Positions 2,716 to 58,500 of a DNA stretch of 59,296 bases are shown piece by piece. Under the pieces are notes generated by a model, which saw nothing but the letters and a program-made list of their open reading frames with translations, was not told the DNA's origin and searched no databases. Both the position numbers and the translations under genes were made by a program. How positions within the stretch are numbered: position 1 is the first letter of the stretch; each line of letters starts with the position of its first letter. The DNA is taken from positions 283,296-342,591 of IMG/VR virus record IMGVR_UViG_3300036781_000418; one strand, 5' to 3'. Source of the stretch: a virus.

Positions 2716-2994
2716 ATGGCATTCATTCTTGAACAACTGCAGGCCCTGGCCGAAAAGAAGCGCGGTAAGAAGTGGAGCGCGGACGTTGAGACGAAGTGGG
2801 AACCTGAAGAGGGTTTCTTCGACGGCTCGGCTGGTAAGATCGCCAAGGGTCTCAAGGCCGCGAGCAAGGACCTGAAGCAGGCCATGTCGCGCCTGAACTT
2901 CTACGTCAACCGTGCTGGCAAGAAGCTGGACGACAAAGCCAAGGCCCGTCTGGACATGGCTAAGGAAAAGCTGAGCGCCTTGTATGAAGATTGA
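2716..2994 (+). CDS. DUF3175-like small basic protein
   Basis: This 92-aa basic protein matches my memory of the DUF3175 family: a W-S-x-x-V start (KKWSADVETKW), a glycine/aspartate turn (EEGFFDG), a KIAKGLK helix, then the hallmark SRLNFYVNRAGKKL and a closing K/R-rich helix ending LSALYED. The function of the family is unknown. A GGAG ribosome site sits between the tRNA 3' end and the ATG. The 3' end overlaps the next gene by 11 bases, so the two are probably translated together. Confidence 0.6.
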   Translation: MAFILEQLQALAEKKRGKKWSADVETKWEPEEGFFDGSAGKIAKGLKAASKDLKQAMSRLNFYVNRAGKKLDDKAKARLDMAKEKLSALYED

Positions 2995-3295
2995 TCAACT
3001 GCTTGAGGCCGAAGACAAGCCAAAATGGAAAACTAGATCAGTTGAGGCCGCGCTGAAAAACGGCTACAACGAAATCTCGGACTTCATGTCTGGAAAGCTT
3101 AACATCAAAGGCTTTGCCGACTTCATCTCCAACATGGCCATGAGCCAGACTGAAAATTCGCGTGAAGCACGCGTGAAGTCAAATCTAGAAACTGCCGCAA
3201 GGCACATCTACAAGCACCTCAAGAAGGAAGGCAAGTACTCGGAAGAGGAGCTTGACGACTTGATGGACGCCATTGAAGAATTGGAAGAATCATGA
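2984..3295 (+). CDS. Hypothetical with capsid-targeting-like N-terminus
   Basis: This 103-aa protein begins MKIDQLLEAEDK, nearly the same leader as the six paralogues at 51760-54570, with a predicted prohead-protease site after Glu8 (L-L-E before A). The rest is charged and helical (FMSGKLNIKGFADFISNMAMS, then KHLKKEGKYSEEELDDLMDAIEELE). No known domain is recognised. Its stop codon overlaps the start of the release-factor gene as ATGA, implying translational coupling. A packaged-protein role is inferred only from the leader. Confidence 0.55.
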   Translation: MKIDQLLEAEDKPKWKTRSVEAALKNGYNEISDFMSGKLNIKGFADFISNMAMSQTENSREARVKSNLETAARHIYKHLKKEGKYSEEELDDLMDAIEELEES

Positions 3296-21795: not shown

Positions 21796-22683
21796 ATGCG
21801 GTCATTCAAACAGTTTCTCCTCCAAGAAGGCGGTAAGGCCATGGAGGAACACGGCGTAGACCGTGCTACCAAGGCGGACATCGAGTCCGTACTTGATCAA
21901 CTCGCCTCCGCGCTCTCCATGTCGAAGGACGACCTAGCCAAGCAGCTGCTTGGCTCGACGACCTTGACGCTGAAGGGCAAGAAGGAAGACTCAGGTGACG
22001 TCGACGTCGGCCTGTTGAAGGACACCCGTGACGAGGCGGTCGCTGCCGTCGAGCAGCACGTTGGAGTTCAAGGCAAGAAGATCGGCGCCAACATCGTCTC
22101 GTTCCCATTTACGGTCGGTGACAAGAAAGTCCAAGTCGACCTGGTGTTCGTGCCTGACCTACGCTGGGCACGCTTCTCGCACTTCGCCTCGGCCAACTCA
22201 CAACACAAGTCCGGTGTTCGCAACGAACTGATCCACTCCGCCCTCAAGTTCTCCCACGTACCTGGTGAGGACGTCGTGCACGTGGACAAGGACGGCAACC
22301 TGGTGGTGCGTGCGTCACGTTCCTACAACCTTGAGGACGGTGTCAAGCGAATCTTCAAGGTCGCCCCGAAGCGCAAGGACGGCCAAGGTCGGGTGAAGTC
22401 CACGGTCCACACCACGCCCGAAGAAGTTCGTCGCACCCTTGACGACATCGGCGTCTCCACGAAGTTCTCCGACAAGGAGGACCTGATCCTTGACCCTAAC
22501 CAGCTCGGTGAGCTTCTGTTCGGTCAAGGCGTCGGTGGGAACGACATGCTCTCCACTGAGCAGCTCATCAAGCTGATCAAGGACAAGAAGGGCGACCGTG
22601 CCGAGGCTATCCTCAAGGACGCGGTGCAGGGGATCAAGGCCCGTAAGTTCGACGTCCCCGACGAGCTCAAGCAGTACGAGTAG
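21796..22683 (+). CDS. Putative packaged nucleotidyltransferase-like protein
   Basis: This 295-aa protein begins MRSFKQFLLQEGGK, a capsid-targeting-like leader with a prohead-protease site after L-Q-E11. It then has a nucleotidyltransferase pattern: LLGSTTLTL at about residue 50, SGDVDVGLL (D-x-D), and VQVDLVFVPD (third Asp). The rest (RVKSTVHTTPEEVRRTLDDIGVS...) is helical. Enzymes with such leaders in T4 (for example Alt) are injected with the DNA, so this may modify host RNA, protein or nucleotides at the start of infection. It has a late-promoter motif and a strong terminator. The substrate is not predictable. Confidence 0.6.
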   Translation: MRSFKQFLLQEGGKAMEEHGVDRATKADIESVLDQLASALSMSKDDLAKQLLGSTTLTLKGKKEDSGDVDVGLLKDTRDEAVAAVEQHVGVQGKKIGANIVSFPFTVGDKKVQVDLVFVPDLRWARFSHFASANSQHKSGVRNELIHSALKFSHVPGEDVVHVDKDGNLVVRASRSYNLEDGVKRIFKVAPKRKDGQGRVKSTVHTTPEEVRRTLDDIGVSTKFSDKEDLILDPNQLGELLFGQGVGGNDMLSTEQLIKLIKDKKGDRAEAILKDAVQGIKARKFDVPDELKQYE

Positions 22684-49785: not shown

Positions 49786-50369
49786 ACTCGTTCATCGTCG
49801 ACGACCGTATCCGCGCAGTTAAGGCGTTCTTGACCACAAGCCCCAACTACACCAAGCCGCACGCGAACCACCCCAAGTTCTCGACGGCCATCTTCAAGGC
49901 TGTGAAGAACGCCTATGAGCGGGCGGCGCGTGAAGGTTGGGGTACAATCTACTGGGCCGTCGACCTACATGACACGGTGATCATGCCGTCGTACCAGCCA
50001 GGTATCATTGGTCAATCCTACCCCTTTGCGCTGGACACGCTCTACTGGTTGTTGTCGTTCCCCGAGACTGGCATCATCCTCTGGTCGTCAATGTCAAAGG
50101 AAGAGTTGGCGCGGCACCGCAGCGTGCTCTTTGAAGGTGTGGCTGACCATGAAGTCCGGGTCTTCCTCAACGAGAACCCCGACATCGGCGCGACGCGGTA
50201 CGCGAACTTCGATCAGAAGATGTACTTCAACATGCTGCTGGACGACAAGGCCGGCTTCGACCACACTACAGACTGGCAGCTTATCCAGGAGGCGGTCAAC
50301 TACTACCGGCCGCGCAACATTGACCGGATGATCAGCGACGAGTTCATTGAAGTGACCGAGCACGCATGA
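49782..50369 (+). CDS. HAD-like phage protein
   Basis: This 195-aa protein has WAVDLHDTVI with the D-x-D-type HAD motif I altered to D-L-H-D-T, then FPETGIILWSSMSKEEL (motif II S). It resembles phage HAD-fold nucleotidases or phosphatases. The second Asp of the usual DxD lies at the fourth position, so catalysis is uncertain. It overlaps both neighbours by ATGA, linking topoisomerase and DnaJ genes. Confidence 0.6.
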   Translation: MNSFIVDDRIRAVKAFLTTSPNYTKPHANHPKFSTAIFKAVKNAYERAAREGWGTIYWAVDLHDTVIMPSYQPGIIGQSYPFALDTLYWLLSFPETGIILWSSMSKEELARHRSVLFEGVADHEVRVFLNENPDIGATRYANFDQKMYFNMLLDDKAGFDHTTDWQLIQEAVNYYRPRNIDRMISDEFIEVTEHA

Positions 50370-51223
50370 AGCCCGCACATGAAGTCCTCGGCATCGGCAA
50401 AGGCTCCTCCGCCGAGGAGGCCAAGACGGCCTACAAGCGCCTCGCCTCCAAGTACCACCCTGACAAGCACCCTGAAGCCGAGAAGCTCGAGTGGGAGCAG
50501 AAGTTCAAGGAGATTGGCGAGGCGCTGAAGTGGTTTGAAGAGCGTGAGACGGGCAAGACCAACGTGTGGCAGGACTTCAGTGGTGGCGGTAGGCCCTACA
50601 CCAACAGCGACATGGCTGACATCCTACGTGCGTTCGCCGAGTCGCACAACCGTGACTATCAAAACCGAGTCGTGCCGATCAATCTCACGGTTGACCTGCA
50701 GCTCGCCTTCACCGGCGGTACGGTCGGTGTCACCCACCGCGGCCGGTCCTACGGCTTCGTCCTCAAGGCTGGCTTGCCGCAAGGCTCCACCTTCACCGAC
50801 GAGCTGCCCACGCCCGAAGGTGCCATCAAAGTGTTGGTCACAACCAACTTCACCAGCAAGGAATATCGGTTCCTCGCCGACAACAACGGCACCTTCCTGT
50901 CCGGTGACCTTGAGAAGGTCGTGTCCATCCACGCCGCGACGATCATGGTCGGCGGCCACGTGCAGGTGAGTGACCTGTCGAACAAGACCTTCGAGGTGCG
51001 CGTGCCGAAGGGCTTCGACATCACCAACCGCCTGAAGCTAAAGGGCCGTGGCTACACCGCCTACAACACAGGTGGCAGCGCGACCGGTCGTGGCGACCTC
51101 TACATCGTCCTCAAGCCCACCTTCAAGATGGCGGCGATGGCGGAAGAGTCCCTCCACTGGTTGGCGGCCGCGATCGAAGAAGAGGTGAACCGTCGTGGCG
51201 AAGAAGCCAGCCCCAAAGAGTGA
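50366..51223 (+). CDS. DnaJ-like co-chaperone
   Basis: This 285-aa protein has an N-terminal J domain (AHEVLGIGKGSSAEEAKTAYKRLASKYHPDKHPEA, with the HPD that stimulates Hsp70). A short linker and C-terminal beta domains (VPINLTVDLQLAFTGGTVGVTHRGR, FEVRVPKGFD, GRGDLYIVLKPTF) follow. There is no zinc-finger region, as in CbpA. A J-protein with the same plan at 54647 is a paralogue. A host DnaK is the presumed partner. Confidence 0.9.
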   Translation: MKPAHEVLGIGKGSSAEEAKTAYKRLASKYHPDKHPEAEKLEWEQKFKEIGEALKWFEERETGKTNVWQDFSGGGRPYTNSDMADILRAFAESHNRDYQNRVVPINLTVDLQLAFTGGTVGVTHRGRSYGFVLKAGLPQGSTFTDELPTPEGAIKVLVTTNFTSKEYRFLADNNGTFLSGDLEKVVSIHAATIMVGGHVQVSDLSNKTFEVRVPKGFDITNRLKLKGRGYTAYNTGGSATGRGDLYIVLKPTFKMAAMAEESLHWLAAAIEEEVNRRGEEASPKE

Positions 51224-51785
51224 CCTCACCGGCTTTGACTTCGACGACGTACCGTACGAGGGGTTGAAGAAGGTTATCTCAGGCGGGCAGACCGGTGCCG
51301 ACATTGCCGGGCTCTACGCCGCTCGTGAACATGGCCTTGAGACCGGTGGTCAGGCGCCTGAGGGGTACTTGACCACGGTGGGCTGCATGCCCGAGCTGGC
51401 GGACTTCGGCCTCACGGCTGCCGGGTCGTACTCACAACGGACCCTGGTGAACGTGAAGTCTTCAGACGCGACACTTGTCCTGAGCAACAACCCGGGTTCG
51501 ACCGGGACCGCCCTCACGATCAAGTACTGCGTTCAGCAGCGGAAGCCGTATCTGCTCGTGCACACTACTGAGTTCATACAGCATACGGCGACACGAGGCG
51601 ACGCCGGCGTCGCGCCGTCTGAGGAGTTAATAGGCTCTGTGGTCGAGTTCATTCGGCGACACCGGTGCACCACCTTAAACGTCGCCGGAAACCGTGAACG
51701 CCACAGCGATCAACGGATCACCATGGCGTGCTTTGACGCCTGTTACAAAGTCTTTCAGGCTATTCGTCCGGCATCCCGTCCTTGA
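51195..51785 (+). CDS. Rossmann-fold protein, molybdenum-carrier-like
   Basis: This 196-aa protein has a GTG start. KKVISGGQTGADIAGLYAAREHGLETGGQAPEGYLT is the motif of the putative molybdenum-carrier family, related to LOG and DprA folds. NVKSSDATLVLSN and CTTLNVAGNRER complete the pattern. Between them, an insertion of about 15 residues (HTATRGDAGVAPSEE) is encoded by the 22-bp repeat at 51586. The end overlaps the convergent gene at 51760. It may bind nucleotides or ADP-ribose-like ligands; function is unclear. Confidence 0.65.
   Translation: MAKKPAPKSDLTGFDFDDVPYEGLKKVISGGQTGADIAGLYAAREHGLETGGQAPEGYLTTVGCMPELADFGLTAAGSYSQRTLVNVKSSDATLVLSNNPGSTGTALTIKYCVQQRKPYLLVHTTEFIQHTATRGDAGVAPSEELIGSVVEFIRRHRCTTLNVAGNRERHSDQRITMACFDACYKVFQAIRPASRP
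51586..51607 (+). repeat. 22-bp dispersed repeat, copy B (inside a gene)
   Basis: Identical to the - strand of 22795-22816. It extends into GGCGTCGCGCCG, so it can fold on itself. A further GGCGACACCGGTGC is at 51655, in the same gene. Confidence 0.8.
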
Positions 51786-52140
51786 TCCACTGCTTGTACA
51801 GTCCGATCATCCTCTTAAGGTCACCAACAAGCTCGCGGTCGTTGGCTGGAGCCCGCGCAGCCTTGAATGTTTGGACAATAACGTACAGGTGAGCTTTATC
51901 GTCGTAGTCGTAGACGATCACCGCCACATGGTCCCAACGGCCGCTAAAATAATTAAGCTCCACCGTTCCATGGAGCTTGCCTTCAATTTTATTTTTAGCC
52001 GCCAAGACTGGAGGGTCTCCGTCGAAGTGTTCAACGACAAACCCTTCACGCTCAAGGTATGGCTTGAGCACCTCAAGCGTTTCCATGGCACCATCTGGAT
52101 CATGATGCGCTTCGCCTTCAAGCAGGTGGTCAAGCTTCAT
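51760..52140 (-). CDS. Packaged-protein paralogue 6
   Basis: This 126-aa acidic protein starts MKLDHLLEGE, with a prohead-protease site after Glu8. The body has METLEVLKPYLEREGFVVEHF, then a beta region TVELNYFSGRWDHVAVIVYDYDD. It is last of six tandem - strand genes that share the leader and the same helix-then-sheet plan. Start 52140 was chosen because the leader begins there; 8 more in-frame codons lie upstream. Its function in the virion or host is unknown. Confidence 0.65.
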   Translation of the reverse strand: MKLDHLLEGEAHHDPDGAMETLEVLKPYLEREGFVVEHFDGDPPVLAAKNKIEGKLHGTVELNYFSGRWDHVAVIVYDYDDKAHLYVIVQTFKAARAPANDRELVGDLKRMIGLYKQWIKDGMPDE

Positions 52141-52516
52141 TCTGTTCTTCCACGTAGCGGTCAACCGCCGTCATAAGGCGCTTGAAGAGCTTAGCGGCGT
52201 CGCCGGAATCCGTCGGCGTTCCACCGTTAAACTTCTTGGCCTTTTCATTAGGGTCGTCAAGCTGTGAATAGTCATGAATGATGCCCTCTACGGCCAACCA
52301 GGTGCCCTCATAAAAGAGGGTGCCGAGCACGCAGATGTAGGGCAGGTTTTTAATCCTGACTTCCTTCATGCAGTGGATACCAGCACTGATGTTGTCCTTA
52401 CTGTTGCCAGTGACGTTGGTGTCGTACCCATGCTTGCGCGCGTAGACGGCAAAGACCTCAAACGTGTCATGCACGTCGGATAGATCTTCTTCTTCAAAGA
52501 GAACGTTCAACTTCAT
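52130..52516 (-). CDS. Packaged-protein paralogue 5
   Basis: This 128-aa protein starts MKLNVLFEEED, with a predicted cut after Glu8 (L-F-E). The helix DVHDTFEVFAVYARKHGYD and a beta region ICVLGTLFYEGTWLAVEGIIHDY follow the family plan. It overlaps the upstream gene by 4 bases and the downstream by 11. It has been packaged and injected if the leader works as in T4. Confidence 0.65.
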   Translation of the reverse strand: MKLNVLFEEEDLSDVHDTFEVFAVYARKHGYDTNVTGNSKDNISAGIHCMKEVRIKNLPYICVLGTLFYEGTWLAVEGIIHDYSQLDDPNEKAKKFNGGTPTDSGDAAKLFKRLMTAVDRYVEEQNEA

Positions 52517-52956
52517 TTGCCACCCTTAAATGCAGCTTCAAACTTATCCAGCTTCTTTGTGTAGGCCGCGACGTCAACCTTCAGCAGCTTCTTCAGCATT
52601 GGAATGACGGACGTGACGGCAATGCCCTGGTGTTTAACGATTGGAAAGTGCGCCTTGCTCAACAGCCCAGTGCTTGGCTCATACGTGTCAAGCTCCACGG
52701 TCCAAGCTGAGTCGTCGTCCTTCTTGAAGTCGTGGTAGATAACGAACGACATTACAAGGTGACCGGAGTTCATCTCCCACTTGCGAGTAGATACGTAAGT
52801 GTGGTAGAACAACTGGTCGTTGTTAGCAGACTTGCGCATTCGAACGTCGCTCTTGAAGCCGTACGACTTCAGGAACTTGCTGAACAGCATCATATTCAGC
52901 TCGACCTCATCGTGGTCCTCTTCAAATAGGTGATCAAGTAGGGTTTGAAGCTTCAT
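52513..52956 (-). CDS. Packaged-protein paralogue 4
   Basis: This 147-aa protein starts MKLQTLLDHLFEEDHD. The leader is 4 residues longer than in the others, and the site L-F-E falls at Glu12. The body has VELNMMLFSKFLKSYGFKSD, then LVMSFVIYHDFKKDDDSAWTVELDTY. Basic and acidic residues alternate. It overlaps both neighbours by ATGA-type junctions. Confidence 0.65.
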   Translation of the reverse strand: MKLQTLLDHLFEEDHDEVELNMMLFSKFLKSYGFKSDVRMRKSANNDQLFYHTYVSTRKWEMNSGHLVMSFVIYHDFKKDDDSAWTVELDTYEPSTGLLSKAHFPIVKHQGIAVTSVIPMLKKLLKVDVAAYTKKLDKFEAAFKGGK

Positions 52957-53411
52957 GCTCTGTTTGCTTTCTCAAATTCAGCTTGCTTGGCGTCCAGCTC
53001 CTTAACCATGGTTGGAACAAGCTTAAGCACCTTGTCAATTGCTTGTAGCACCTGCTTTACGTCGAGATCACGAGCTTTAAACGAGCTAAAGCCATGGCGC
53101 TCTTTATTGTCGAAGACCTCACCATTGTCCTCGTCAAGCACACTTGCGAAAATCGTCCAAGTGTTCTTATTAGGCTCACAATAGATGATGACGTTTAGCA
53201 CCACTTCGCCGCGCGCAATCTTCCAGATCTGCCAATCGTTGTAGTTGAAGTAGACGGCTGGATGGACGCCAGGACGTTTAACTGGATCGTAAATTACTGT
53301 CTTCTCAAAGTTGTGCTTCTGCATGTACTTGATGAACAACTTCAAGTCCGTTGACGCGTCCTCTGGATCGTAGTCGGCGTGATCGTTTTCTAGGAGCAGG
53401 TCGAGTTTCAT
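52953..53411 (-). CDS. Packaged-protein paralogue 3
   Basis: This 152-aa protein starts MKLDLLLENDHADYD, with site L-L-E8. It then has DASTDLKLFIKYMQKHNFEKT and a beta part VYFNYNDWQIWKIARGEVVLNVIIY. The C-terminal coiled region (KVLKLVPTMVKELDAKQAEFEKA) is like the C-terminus of paralogue 4. It is coupled by 4-base overlaps. Confidence 0.65.
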   Translation of the reverse strand: MKLDLLLENDHADYDPEDASTDLKLFIKYMQKHNFEKTVIYDPVKRPGVHPAVYFNYNDWQIWKIARGEVVLNVIIYCEPNKNTWTIFASVLDEDNGEVFDNKERHGFSSFKARDLDVKQVLQAIDKVLKLVPTMVKELDAKQAEFEKANRA

Positions 53412-54019
53412 GGAAACTTCTTCTTAAAAGTTTCGATATACTTCTTAGCTACCTCGAAGGCCTCTTCAGGCGTCTTAATGTTTTGGCGAGCACCGCCAAT
53501 GATGTACTTCTTGTCGTACTTTTCAACGTTGTGGAAGCGTACGCTTTGAGTGCCGTGAAGGTGTTGAATGAAACTGTTGGTACGAACAGCCCACACCCCG
53601 TGTTCAAACTCAGCAACTACTGTGAATTTTAGCTCGCCATCAACGTGCGTGACTTCATCCTCAACCCACTGGCTACTCGTGGTATCGTAGTATTTGACCC
53701 GTGTAACTGGCACCACCCACTTACCGATTGCGTGACCACTGACGGCGTGCTTTGCCGCTGAATGAGTTGCAATACGCGGCACCGTAAACCCATTCGTCTT
53801 AAACATTGCCGCGATCAGCTTAAGTGACGTTGTAACGTCTTCAACGTCAATTTGGTCGGTGAACTGGGCCAGCACCCTGTTGAGCTCACTGTTTCCAGCG
53901 CCAGCCACGATGAACTTGGTAAACTCTGCACGACACTTCAAGAACTGCTCGTCCGTCAGCTCGTCAATAATGTTCTTTTTCGTCTTGCCAATAGCTTCTA
54001 GCAACTGATCAAATTTCAT
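53408..54019 (-). CDS. Packaged-protein paralogue 2
   Basis: This 203-aa protein is the longest of the set. It starts MKFDQLLEAIGK (cut after Glu8), then a helical insertion of about 45 residues that paralogue 1 also has (DELTDEQFLKCRAEFTKFIVAGAGNSELNRVL). The shared core VTTSLKLIAAMFKTNGFTV and a beta part (YDTTSSQWVEDEVTHVDGELKFTVVAEF) follow. It overlaps the gene at 54016 by 4 bases. Confidence 0.65.
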   Translation of the reverse strand: MKFDQLLEAIGKTKKNIIDELTDEQFLKCRAEFTKFIVAGAGNSELNRVLAQFTDQIDVEDVTTSLKLIAAMFKTNGFTVPRIATHSAAKHAVSGHAIGKWVVPVTRVKYYDTTSSQWVEDEVTHVDGELKFTVVAEFEHGVWAVRTNSFIQHLHGTQSVRFHNVEKYDKKYIIGGARQNIKTPEEAFEVAKKYIETFKKKFP

Positions 54020-54570
54020 TTTGGGTACTTCTTGTTGAACTTTGCGATGATACTACGAATACCAACCAAGGCGGCCGAGGCGTCTTCTACCTTTGGTGTG
54101 GTTATAGGCTTGTCGATGTCGTTATGGCTACGAGTATCCGACGCGGCGGTTGGGTAAGCCGCCACCTCCCACTGTGCGTTGGAATATTCAACGCGCAAGA
54201 TGCCTTGGATGGTGTGCATGTTTGGATAGTTGGCACCGGTAGGCCGCTGTGGAAATTCTGCCACCAACACACCCATTGGATTCTTGTAACGGTCCAGCAC
54301 GATTTTGTTTCGAGTGACCTCAAGGTCTTCTTGTTCAATGGCCTTCTGGAACAAGTCAAGGTCCACTTGCACGTCGTCCACGTTAACCTCAATGTTCTTG
54401 ATCTGCACCAGCAGCGCGTCAATTTCACTGTTGGTCAAGCCGGAGCCAATGATGTTCAGCAGGTGCTCCTTGTTGTCCAGCAACTCCTTGTCGGTGATTG
54501 TTGCCAGCTTTTTGAGCTTGCTTGGATTGGCGTCCTTAAGAAACGCCTCCGACAGGTGTTCAAATTTCAT
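54016..54570 (-). CDS. Packaged-protein paralogue 1
   Basis: This 184-aa protein starts MKFEHLSEAFLKD, with site L-S-E8. The helical part TDKELLDNKEHLLNIIGSGLTNSEIDALL matches paralogue 2 in layout, followed by VDDVQVDLDLFQKAIEQEDLEV and a beta region. It is first in the operon, 22 bases after a late motif on the - strand. No enzyme motif is visible; a host-interacting or DNA-condensing role is possible. Confidence 0.65.
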   Translation of the reverse strand: MKFEHLSEAFLKDANPSKLKKLATITDKELLDNKEHLLNIIGSGLTNSEIDALLVQIKNIEVNVDDVQVDLDLFQKAIEQEDLEVTRNKIVLDRYKNPMGVLVAEFPQRPTGANYPNMHTIQGILRVEYSNAQWEVAAYPTAASDTRSHNDIDKPITTPKVEDASAALVGIRSIIAKFNKKYPK

Positions 54571-54591: not shown

Positions 54592-54599
54592 CTATTTAG
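54592..54599 (-). promoter_or_regulatory. Late promoter motif (CTAAATAG)
   Basis: Drives the six-gene - strand operon. The core is 22 bases from ATG 54570, back to back with the + motif at 54616. Confidence 0.6.
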
Positions 54600-54615: not shown

Positions 54616-54623
54616 GTAAATAC
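54616..54623 (+). promoter_or_regulatory. Late promoter motif (GTAAATAC)
   Basis: The core is 24 bases before ATG 54647. It is embedded in a small palindrome, GCCGTAAATACGGC. Confidence 0.55.
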
Positions 54624-54646: not shown

Positions 54647-55474
54647 ATGAGCGCCTACAAGACCCTTGGTATTCCCGAAGGTTCCACCGTCGAGGTAGCC
54701 AAGGCCGCCTACCGCAAACTTGCCATGAAGAACCACCCCGACCATGGTGGCAACGCGGAGACGTTCAAGACGATCAAGTTGGCCTGGGAGGACATCGAGG
54801 CTGGTCGTGTCAAGGCTGCGCCACCGCCCTTCACCGGTTCGACCTCGTTCGGCGACATCCCAAAGCGGCGCCCAGCACCGAAGTCGGCGTACCAGCACAC
54901 GCCCGGCAACCGCCGTCCACGTGACGAGATGCCGCGGATCTACACTCGCACGATCGGCACCAAGCCGCAACACTTCTGCGACATCTACATCACGGAGGAG
55001 CAGGCTTTCGACGGCTGCTTCGTGCCAATCCTGAACGGCAAGGAGCAGATCGACTTCATCATTCGTCCAGGCTGTGGTCAAGGCTCGATCAGCGAGACTA
55101 TCCGCGGCTCCAACGTCATCGGCGCCATGGTCAGTTCGCTGACCGTCCAGTTCAACATCTACATCGTGCACGAGGCGGAAGCCGACGAGGTGCGCAAGGA
55201 CATGGAGCTGAACGTTTCCATCTCGGCGCTGGCCTTGCTGGTCGGTGCGACCTTCGGCGTCTCGGACGCGAAGGGGGTACGTGTTGAAGTCACGGTGCCG
55301 CCTGGCTACGACCCAGCCCAGAAGCTGCGTGTCGCTAACCGAGGCTACGGTCCTGACGGCGGGCGCGGTGACCTCCTGCTCTTTCTCAAGCCGGTCTGGA
55401 CCAACCCAACCAGCTTCACACCGGTCGAGCGTCAGCTCGCCGTCAACCTCTACACGATGATCAACCAAAAGTAA
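54647..55474 (+). CDS. DnaJ-like co-chaperone, late paralogue
   Basis: This 275-aa protein has a J domain KTLGIPEGSTVEVAKAAYRKLAMKNHPDHGGNAETFKTI with HPD, a Pro-rich linker, and C-terminal beta domains (GCFVPILNGKEQIDFIIRPGCGQ, VEVTVPPGYDPAQKLRVANRGYG, GRGDLLLFLKPVW). It lacks the zinc finger. It shares the plan of the protein at 50366 but has a late promoter, so it may help assemble virions. It is followed by a small gene and thyA. Confidence 0.88.
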   Translation: MSAYKTLGIPEGSTVEVAKAAYRKLAMKNHPDHGGNAETFKTIKLAWEDIEAGRVKAAPPPFTGSTSFGDIPKRRPAPKSAYQHTPGNRRPRDEMPRIYTRTIGTKPQHFCDIYITEEQAFDGCFVPILNGKEQIDFIIRPGCGQGSISETIRGSNVIGAMVSSLTVQFNIYIVHEAEADEVRKDMELNVSISALALLVGATFGVSDAKGVRVEVTVPPGYDPAQKLRVANRGYGPDGGRGDLLLFLKPVWTNPTSFTPVERQLAVNLYTMINQK

Positions 55475-55800: not shown

Positions 55801-56744
55801 GAAACAACGCATTTACCTGGGAAACCAAGCTTCACGCTCTGTTCAACGACATCATCCTGATGGGCGATGAACGAGCTGACCGCACTGGAACTGGCACGCT
55901 GGCCATGTTCGGCGGCAACCTAACTATCGACCTATCGCGCGGTTTCCCAATGGTGACTACCAAGGCGATGACCTTGCGCCCAATCGTGAGTGAGCTGCTT
56001 TGGTTCTGTGAAGGTTCGGGCGACGAACGTCGGCTGGCTGAAATTCACCACGGTACACGTGACCGATCCAAGCGAACCATTTGGTCGCCGAACGCCGACG
56101 CTACCACGGGTTCTAAGTACACGCCTAAGCAGTATGGTGACCTTGGTGAGGTCTATGGGGTTCAGTGGCGACACTGGCCAACCGTAGACGTCAAGGAGTA
56201 CGGCGACTTCATGGAACATCCAGCGGGTGGTACCACGTACTTCAACGCCAAGGTGACGACTGGAGAAGTCGATCAGCTTCAAGCTCTGATCGACGGCCTG
56301 AAGAACGATCCACATGGTCGCCGTCATATCTTGTCCGCCTGGAACGTTGGGCGGCTTGACAAGATGGCGCTACCACCATGCCACATGATGGCCCAGTTCT
56401 ACTTGAACAACGCTGGTTACTTGTCCTGTCAGATGTACCAACGTTCAGTGGACACGTTCCTTGGTCTTCCGTTCAACATCGCGTCCTACGCTGCGCTGAC
56501 GCATATGATCGCCCACCTAATTGGTGCGAAGCCTGGTGCGTTGAAGATCGTCATGGGTGACACCCACATCTACAAGGATCACCTTGACCAAGTCCAACTT
56601 CAGCTCAAGCAAGAGATCAAGGACGCACCGAAGCTAAGACCGTTTAGAGACGACATCAAGTCGATTGAGGACTTTTCCATTGATGACTTTGTCCTTGAAG
56701 GCTACACACCTGGAATCAAGATCACTGGAGCCATGTCGGCATGA
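55797..56744 (+). CDS. thyA: Thymidylate synthase
   Basis: This 315-aa enzyme converts dUMP to dTMP. Landmarks are DERADRTGTGTLAMFGGNLTIDL, FPMVTTKAMTLRPIVSELLWF, GQWRHW-like VQWRHW, ALPPCHMMAQFYL with the catalytic Cys, and YQRSVDTFLGLPFNIASYA with the dUMP-selecting Asn. KIVMGDTHIYKDHLDQVQLQL completes it. It differs from the hydroxymethylase at 25157, which has Asp at the Asn position. The length is normal. It is ATGA-coupled to kptA. Confidence 0.96.
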   Translation: MRNNAFTWETKLHALFNDIILMGDERADRTGTGTLAMFGGNLTIDLSRGFPMVTTKAMTLRPIVSELLWFCEGSGDERRLAEIHHGTRDRSKRTIWSPNADATTGSKYTPKQYGDLGEVYGVQWRHWPTVDVKEYGDFMEHPAGGTTYFNAKVTTGEVDQLQALIDGLKNDPHGRRHILSAWNVGRLDKMALPPCHMMAQFYLNNAGYLSCQMYQRSVDTFLGLPFNIASYAALTHMIAHLIGAKPGALKIVMGDTHIYKDHLDQVQLQLKQEIKDAPKLRPFRDDIKSIEDFSIDDFVLEGYTPGIKITGAMSA

Positions 56745-57250
56745 GCAAGTCACGCAGCGTCTACCTTTCTTTGCTGCTCAGGCACCAGCCTGAGAAGGCC
56801 AACCTCACCTTGGACAAGGAGGGCTGGGTCACCCTTGAGCAGCTCACCGCCAACACCGACTTCACCGTGCCTGAGCTCGAGGTCATCGTGGCTGAGGACC
56901 AGAAGACTCGGTACTCAATCAAGGACGGCAAGATTCGCGCCAACCAGGGCCACTCCACCGACGTCCAGCTGACCTTCAAGAAGGTCACCCCACCAACCGT
57001 CCTGTACCATGGCACGCCACGTAAGTCGGTCGAGGTCATCCGCAAGGAGGGCCTTAAGCCGATGTCGCGTCACCACGTCCACCTCAGCGCGTCCTACCCA
57101 ACGGCCGAGCAGGTCGGTGGTCGTCGAGGCAGCGCCGTGGTGCTCATCATCGACACCTTCAAGATGGTCTCGGACGGCGTCCAGTTCTACATCTCCGACA
57201 ACGGGGTTTACCTCGTTGACCACGTTCCTTCAAAGTACATTACCGTATGA
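56741..57250 (+). CDS. kptA: RNA 2'-phosphotransferase (KptA/Tpt1)
   Basis: This 169-aa protein matches KptA/Tpt1 throughout: SVYLSLLLRHQPEKANLTLDKEGWV, LYHGTPRKSVEVIRKEGL, KPMSRHHVHLSASYPTAEQVGGRRGSAVVLIID and FYISDNGVYLVDHVP. The Arg, His and two further Arg of the active site are present. The enzyme moves an internal RNA 2'-phosphate to NAD, giving ADP-ribose 1,2-cyclic phosphate. A macrodomain gene that could process the product lies 760 bases downstream. It is coupled to thyA and groES by overlaps. Confidence 0.93.
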   Translation: MSKSRSVYLSLLLRHQPEKANLTLDKEGWVTLEQLTANTDFTVPELEVIVAEDQKTRYSIKDGKIRANQGHSTDVQLTFKKVTPPTVLYHGTPRKSVEVIRKEGLKPMSRHHVHLSASYPTAEQVGGRRGSAVVLIIDTFKMVSDGVQFYISDNGVYLVDHVPSKYITV

Positions 57251-57540: not shown

Positions 57541-58040
57541 ACCGCAAGATCATCATCAACCGCTTCATCCGTCCACTGCGGATCGACGACCGCGGTGAGC
57601 TGGTGACGGACGAGTTCGGCGGAGTCGGCCTCCAATTTCACGGGGTGGAAGAAGGGGTTGAGACTCGTTGGTGGGCGGTGGGAACCTTCCTGGCACGCGA
57701 CACCAAGTTCGCCCGCTCGACGGCCGCCAACGTCTTGACGAAGCTGGCCCAGACTGAGAGCCTCAACGGGGTGAGTGAACGGCTGGTCTTCGGTTCAACT
57801 ACCGACAACCTCGTCCAAGAGTTTACCGACTGGGCGGACGCGTACGTCACCAGCGTGGAGAAGCACGGCTGCATCACCGCGTTGGAGCTCTACCGAAGCA
57901 GCCACCTGCAGAAGCTGCTTGAGCAGCTGGTAATCCTTACGTGTGAGAACGACATCATCACTGAGCTTCACGTGAACCTGATGAAGAGCTTGGAAGGAAC
58001 GGCGAAAGAATATGACGACGAAGCAAACCCAACTGGGTGA
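57537..58040 (+). CDS. Hypothetical protein
   Basis: This 167-aa protein (IIINRFIRPLRIDDRGELVTDEFGGVGLQFHG, then LARDTKFARSTAANVLTKLAQTESLNG) has no recognised family. It overlaps groES by 4 bases and the macrodomain gene by 29. Confidence 0.6.
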   Translation: MNRKIIINRFIRPLRIDDRGELVTDEFGGVGLQFHGVEEGVETRWWAVGTFLARDTKFARSTAANVLTKLAQTESLNGVSERLVFGSTTDNLVQEFTDWADAYVTSVEKHGCITALELYRSSHLQKLLEQLVILTCENDIITELHVNLMKSLEGTAKEYDDEANPTG

Positions 58041-58500
58041 CATTACATCAGTCTCGAAGGGGATCATCATCCACCAGGTGAACGCCCAAGGCCTGATGGG
58101 TAGTGGTGTGGCGCTGGCCCTTCGGCGCCGGTACCCGTCCATCTTCGACGACTACGCCGAGGAGATCAAGCCACGCCAGCCCAACCACGCCTCCGCGCTG
58201 TACATGGGTCGGTTGATCATGAGCACGGTGGGTGAGAACCTGAGGGTGGCTCAAATCGTCGGCCAGCAGTTCTGCGGTTCAGACGGGTTGAAGTACACCT
58301 CGTACGACGCCCTCGACGCCGGTCTGACGCACCTTGCCGACTGGATCGAAACTCGCGTGGACAACGGTGACATGCCCGCACCGCACATCCACTACCCACT
58401 GATCGGCGCCGGCCTTGGTGGTGGAAACTGGGAGGTGATCGAGCAGATCATCGCCCACCGTCTGGCTCGGTACGAACGGACCCTATGGCGCTTTATGTGA
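58012..58500 (+). CDS. Macrodomain (ADP-ribose-phosphate-type) protein
   Basis: This 162-aa protein has GDITSVSKGIIIHQVNAQGLMGSGVALALRRRYPSIFDDY, the ADP-ribose-binding loop, and YPLIGAGLGGGNWEVIEQII, a second binding loop. This is like Poa1/Appr-1-P phosphatase and some T4-like macro proteins. It could remove phosphate from ADP-ribose 1-phosphate formed after the KptA reaction, or undo host ADP-ribosylation. It overlaps the next gene by 16 bases. Confidence 0.85.
   Translation: MTTKQTQLGDITSVSKGIIIHQVNAQGLMGSGVALALRRRYPSIFDDYAEEIKPRQPNHASALYMGRLIMSTVGENLRVAQIVGQQFCGSDGLKYTSYDALDAGLTHLADWIETRVDNGDMPAPHIHYPLIGAGLGGGNWEVIEQIIAHRLARYERTLWRFM

Follow-up and report, generated by a model that had tools for sequence, protein, structure and literature searches.

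Six tandem genes with probable T4-type capsid-targeting leaders belong to a genome-wide leader set in an uncultivated jumbo phage

Six small open reading frames (ORFs), here called g1 to g6, lie in tandem on the minus strand at positions 51760-54570 of a 59,296-nucleotide stretch (the window) that is part of the 342,591-bp record of an uncultivated jumbo phage (IMG/VR record IMGVR_UViG_3300036781_000418); coordinates refer to the window unless the record is named. Each of the six N-termini reads MK[LF]xxL. The first gene, g1 (54016-54570, 184 aa), opens with the leader MKFEHLSE (54547-54570), followed by A, and has a long N-terminal extension in common with g2 (53408-54019, 203 aa; MKFDQLLE at 53996-54019, then A). 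Behind these come g3 (52953-53411, 152 aa; MKLDLLLE at 53388-53411, then N), g4 (52513-52956, 147 aa; MKLQTLLDHLFE at 52921-52956, then E), g5 (52130-52516, 128 aa; MKLNVLFE at 52493-52516, then E) and g6 (51760-52140, 126 aa; MKLDHLLE at 52117-52140, then G). The start of g6 is taken as the ATG at 52140; the listed ORF begins at an upstream TTG. A sequence-only reading of the window had described six tandem frames that reach L-x-E by residue 8 (12 in g4) and are coupled by 4-base overlaps. The frames and their N-termini, all on the minus strand, are as described; the coupling holds at g1/g2, g2/g3, g3/g4 and g4/g5 but not at g5/g6, where the overlap is 11 bases.

The leaders sit at the extreme N-terminus and span 8 residues, or 12 in g4, within the range of about 6-20 residues of T4-type capsid-targeting sequences (CTS), and all end in [LI]-x-E (from g1 to g6: LSE, LLE, LLE, LFE at residue 12, LFE and LLE). 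In T4, cleavage by the gp21 protease follows L/I-X-E, the N-terminal 10 residues of IPIII are enough for targeting, and Asp at the IPIII cleavage position stops processing while targeting is unaffected (PMC9026906); Alt loses its first six residues (ITE-6, PMC5694885). Because Asp, the residue found at position 8 of g4, blocks processing of IPIII, the displacement of L-x-E to residue 12 in g4 fits the same rule.

These six genes are the local part of a leader set that extends over the whole genome, so that the interval originally singled out, though its genes are real, was too narrow. We searched the whole record for leader patterns and read selected stretches totalling 133 kb, a sample enriched for leader loci. 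Across the 342.6 kb, MK[LIMFV]xxLxE has 25 matches and its reversed pattern none; 24 of these matches begin ORFs that are 103-394 aa long, many with unrelated bodies, and at least 18 leader proteins are encoded elsewhere in the genome besides the six of the cassette. The remaining match opens a 13-codon ORF with little beyond its leader (MKLENLNEELFDV; record 214726-214787), which runs up to the start of the leader gene that follows and looks like the remnant of one. Looser variants (MRVVHLFE, MKLDLFE, MRLTTLLE, MNLEQLLE and others, from partial genome coverage) add members, and by sequence the set probably comprises about 40 genes, with clusters at record ~11-14, 75-79, 84-98, 134-135, 209-215, 257-258, 269-275 and 335-338 kb. 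Its carriers include an amidoligase (Amidoligase_2, 2e-7), leucine-rich-repeat-like (LRR-like) proteins encoded directly downstream of gp23 and many orphans, and some leader genes adjoin tail genes such as that for the sheath. In the leader-enriched 133 kb, 40 ORFs start with MK-[hydrophobic], and 33 of them have an [LI]xE that ends by residue 14; among internal windows the share is 7%. Codons vary synonymously at the invariant leader positions, including the conserved L6 and E8; selection therefore acts on the peptide, and it is the protein rather than the DNA that is conserved.

The same record encodes the machinery that such a signal would engage. The genes for the portal and the gp23 capsid protein (PF07068, 2e-86) and a scaffold-like ORF lie next to that for an S77 prohead protease of the gp21 type (PF03420, 5e-26). 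Clade capsid proteins keep L-x-E followed by TA at the position of the T4 gp23 cleavage site, here ILKE|TAGG (by position only), so that a gp21/S77 protease and a gp23 with a matching maturation site occur in one phage. The gp21 gene, at record 129743-130354, directly follows that for the portal (both within record 127975-130354), and the core genes gp67 and gp68, which stand here in T4, are missing or moved.

The late motif that the sequence-only reading named is well founded. CTAAATAG lies at 54592-54599 on the minus strand, 29 nt upstream of g1, and motifs of this kind are strongly enriched before ORFs:.TAAATA. occurs 49 times in the 133 kb, and 32 of these precede by 24-41 nt the ATG of an ORF that is at least 70 aa long, whereas 14 letter-permuted controls average 9 occurrences, of which a mean of 1.1 and a maximum of 5 are so positioned. 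The form [CG]TAAATA[GC], which also stands upstream of gp21, the tail sheath gene and several leader clusters, is close to the T4 late promoter consensus, TATAAATA. This enriched, promoter-like motif, common to cassette and head genes, suggests that they may be expressed late and together.

Behind their leaders, the cassette proteins are related to an uneven degree. With leaders removed, g3 matches g4 (4e-8) and g1 matches g2 over the N-terminal ~60 aa (7e-5), which upholds part of the earlier proposal of six paralogues, while g5 and g6 are only marginal. All six bodies probably descend from one ancestor, although sequence shows such descent only for the g1/g2 and g3/g4 pairs. The g4 body is also related to a protein encoded at record 87290-87751 (3e-6, leader removed). 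A profile of these seven proteins gives weaker matches at record 86.6, 88.1, 12.7 and 214 kb (4e-5 to 0.03, scores partly due to the leader itself) and none in 15 relatives, so that the bodies are found solely in this phage among the 16 records searched. Structure prediction bore partly on the helix-plus-beta plan that had been proposed for all six: the AlphaFold2 model of g3 (mean predicted local distance difference test score, pLDDT, 82.7) has a helix, five strands and a long C-terminal helix, and that of g6 has a similar order of elements, at a low confidence (pLDDT 56.5) that makes it usable for element order alone. Weak matches of the bodies to an unknown PHROG (0.0036), a baseplate hub (0.011) and EC042_2821 (0.011) are not trusted, and searching phage records and viral contigs with the nucleotide and protein sequences of the cassette gave nothing useful.

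The leader is shared more widely than the bodies. By its capsid protein the phage groups with uncultivated jumbo phages (49-78% identity in the searched contigs); the nearest named phages are XacN1 and Stenotrophomonas CM1/RAS14 (45%), then CBB/GAP32/121Q (38%). Fifteen clade contigs, two near-duplicates included, yield 80 leader matches against 5 for the control; the looser matches include chance hits, and the tighter MK[LIF]xxL[FLYH]E fits 45 of 72 distinct sequences read, of which 43 open ORFs of at least 60 aa. Carriers in these relatives comprise proteins matching ART-PolyVal (5e-9) and CTP_transf_like (4e-7), an amidoligase, LRR-like arrays and a GH19 domain fused to LRR repeats (1e-10), the last of five tandem leader genes; in one near-duplicate pair gp21 itself bears the leader. 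Four other ADP-ribosyltransferase assignments in the relatives were made by eye and have no Pfam support. The leader is thus a portable signal, found on amidoligase, ADP-ribosyltransferase, nucleotidyltransferase, GH19, LRR-like and orphan bodies.

A counterpart occurs in Agrobacterium phage Atu_ph07, which has homologues of the amidoligase and of two leader-protein families of the relatives. Its gp53-gp62 form a tandem array in which all ten proteins start M[KR]WxxLxE; gp53 also has a zeta-toxin-like kinase domain (1.5e-14). The array falls within coding sequences (CDS) 31-76, of whose products 29 were detected in virions by electrospray ionization tandem mass spectrometry (ESI-MS/MS), only two of these 29 being predicted to be structural (PMC6102473); numbering in that paper and in the record agree, gp70 being the helicase-primase in both. 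From its position in the genome, the array would support packaging at the level of the cluster, not of any one protein. Several gp53-gp62 proteins have YRGM motifs, suggestive of ADP-ribosyltransferases.

We conclude that the MK-[LIF]-x-x-L-x-E N-terminus is probably a T4-type CTS, functionally like those of Alt and IPI-IPIII. The sequence-only reading had proposed T4-like capsid targeting, and the enrichment in genome and clade, the presence of gp21 and gp23, the L-x-E at the gp23 site, the late motif, the leaders on unrelated enzymes and the Atu_ph07 array all speak for it. Like T4 IPI-IPIII, the leader proteins here combine a short MK leader, hydrophobic positions and [LI]-x-E with variable bodies, and they are small proteins encoded outside the conserved head genes of a genome with a gp21-type protease. 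They differ in the leader itself (MKTYQEFIAE in T4, MKLxxLxE here), in their unrelated, mostly acidic bodies and in number, with at least 24 proteins and several tandem clusters. The leader of T4 Alt, a packaged and injected ADP-ribosyltransferase, is MELITELFDE, near the clade consensus MKLxELFE, and ADP-ribosyltransferase-like proteins bear the leader in relatives (with the ART-PolyVal match in one), whereas the cassette six are without ADP-ribosyltransferase similarity, none being matched in the Pfam scan of g1-g6. Atu_ph07 gp53-gp62 share the tandem order and the fixed leader, some are homologous to clade leader proteins, and their cluster is rich in virion proteins detected by mass spectrometry; they have Trp at residue 3, bodies unrelated to g1-g6 and annotations as hypothetical proteins. 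A likeness without any claim of homology exists to the ejected head proteins of SPN3US/phiKZ, which are packaged in the head, undergo processing by a prohead protease and are passed on to the host; in SPN3US, however, propeptides are mostly >100 residues and are cut at A-x-E (PMC5694885).

By this reading, the six proteins would be synthesized late from the T4-type promoter, their leaders would dock them onto the prohead core, and the S77 protease (gp21 homologue) would cleave after the leader Glu; the mature 13-22 kDa proteins would remain in the head, enter the host with the DNA and probably counter host functions or defences early on. We infer packaging, cleavage, injection and target from the features above, injection by analogy with T4, in which Alt and many of the IPs pass into the host (PMC9026906). 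Type IV restriction enzymes are inhibited by T4 IPs (PMC9026906, PMC12373910). The analogy with IPI-III and Alt also makes an anti-host or anti-defence role plausible, and for six small, orphan, tandem-duplicated and putatively packaged proteins it is our best guess, though one that could as easily prove wrong.

Several observations weigh against this reading. Neither Pfam nor PHROG yielded a significant family for any of the six bodies, and fold searches of PDB and BFVD with the g3 model found no match at E<=0.001. The bodies do not resemble those of T4 IPI-IPIII, to judge from the PHROG and Pfam scans and from the isoelectric points (pI) of the mature proteins, which are not basic in four of six (4.9-5.7, with two at 8.7-8.9; T4 IPII/IPIII, 9.6). 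In seven more distant jumbo records with the same head genes the leader has 33 matches against 16 in the control, about twofold, and the pattern is therefore weak there. No virion proteomics turned up for this uncultivated phage, and each leader protein is individually a candidate for packaging.

The main competing explanation accepts that the leaders target the capsid but gives the proteins a structural role: as fillers of the core or scaffold they would help to form the head or condense DNA, without being injected. In T4 the gp21 protease also processes the core proteins gp67 and gp22, and loss of IPIII slows T4 head assembly (PMC9026906). Leader-like starts occur on core or scaffold proteins of related phages (Vibrio phage 2.275.O has MKLVELFEAN at the gp67 position, CBB has MSKLDKFLNES), and this phage has no gp67/gp68 between portal and gp21. 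Yet core proteins are normally conserved, while the cassette bodies occur in this phage alone among 16 records, and leaders also stand on enzymes for which a structural role is not apparent; we regard a purely structural function as unlikely.

That the leader addresses another compartment or partner (the tail, a subcellular structure built by the phage or a degradation adaptor), its likeness to T4 being convergent, seems more doubtful still: packaging is so far putative and some leader genes lie beside tail genes such as sheath, but the leader follows the L-x-E rule of the type of protease that this genome itself encodes, a rule matched in the capsid protein, and the analogous Atu_ph07 array lies inside a virion-protein cluster. 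Least credible by far is that the N-terminus merely reflects a translation-initiation preference for MK together with recent duplication. The cassette is tandem and partly paralogous, and MK starts are common; such a preference sits poorly, however, with L6 and E8 being kept despite codon variation, with the dissimilarity of many bodies across the set, and with the frequency of L-x-E after MK-hydrophobic starts (33/40, as against 7% of internal windows).

Other leader and leader-like N-termini lie in the window on the plus strand: an ORF at 2984-3295 (103 aa; MKIDQLLE, then AEDK), one at 1584-2582 with MHKFTTINQLLNEA and a late motif, GTAAATAT, 31 nt upstream, and one at 21796-22683 with MRSFKQFLLQEG and the motif GTAAATAC 32 nt upstream. 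The cassette is flanked by two opposite-strand ORFs with J-domains (DnaJ-like, by eye) at 50366-51223 and 54647-55474, the latter of which has a late-type motif of its own (GTAAATAC at 54616) standing back to back with the g1 motif. Adjoining the cassette, an ORF at 51195-51785 has an N-terminal SGGQTGAD that resembles putative molybdenum-carrier/SLOG proteins (by eye), and ORFs at 56741-57250 and 58012-58500 look, again by eye, like a KptA-type RNA 2'-phosphotransferase and a macrodomain, both of ADP-ribose chemistry.

Two matches to the leader pattern in CBB give no support, one lying inside the topoisomerase II gene and the other belonging to a gene outside the detected virion proteome. We also considered an Acb1 homologue (anti-CBASS, T4 57B family) as a leader-bearing protein and downgraded it, the Vibrio homologues aligning from residue 1. 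Acb1 of Vibrio phages ValKK3 and D479 and Aeromonas phage Aeh1 starts MKLSKFLES, MKFQQFLEN and MLKSFSEFTEA, CTS-like stretches just before the conserved GTYV, and by these starts some Acb1 proteins may be packaged; T4 57B adjoins ipI but is without L-x-E.

The proteins that a phage injects encounter host defences before any others do, and those that jumbo phages deliver from the virion are mostly unnamed. Since the leader resembles the head-loading signal of T4, it points to a large and mostly unstudied set of probable injected proteins. For the jumbo-phage clade and, with a variant leader, Atu_ph07, there is perhaps an even chance that it marks a delivery programme in which one tag has spread onto many unrelated genes, several tens of injected effectors per genome and mostly of unknown families. 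If so, the tag would be a way of listing injected effectors from sequence only: a leader that can be read in this manner would yield, for uncultivated phages, a list of candidate effectors that can be put to the test, within which the cassette is a fast-diverging orphan set.

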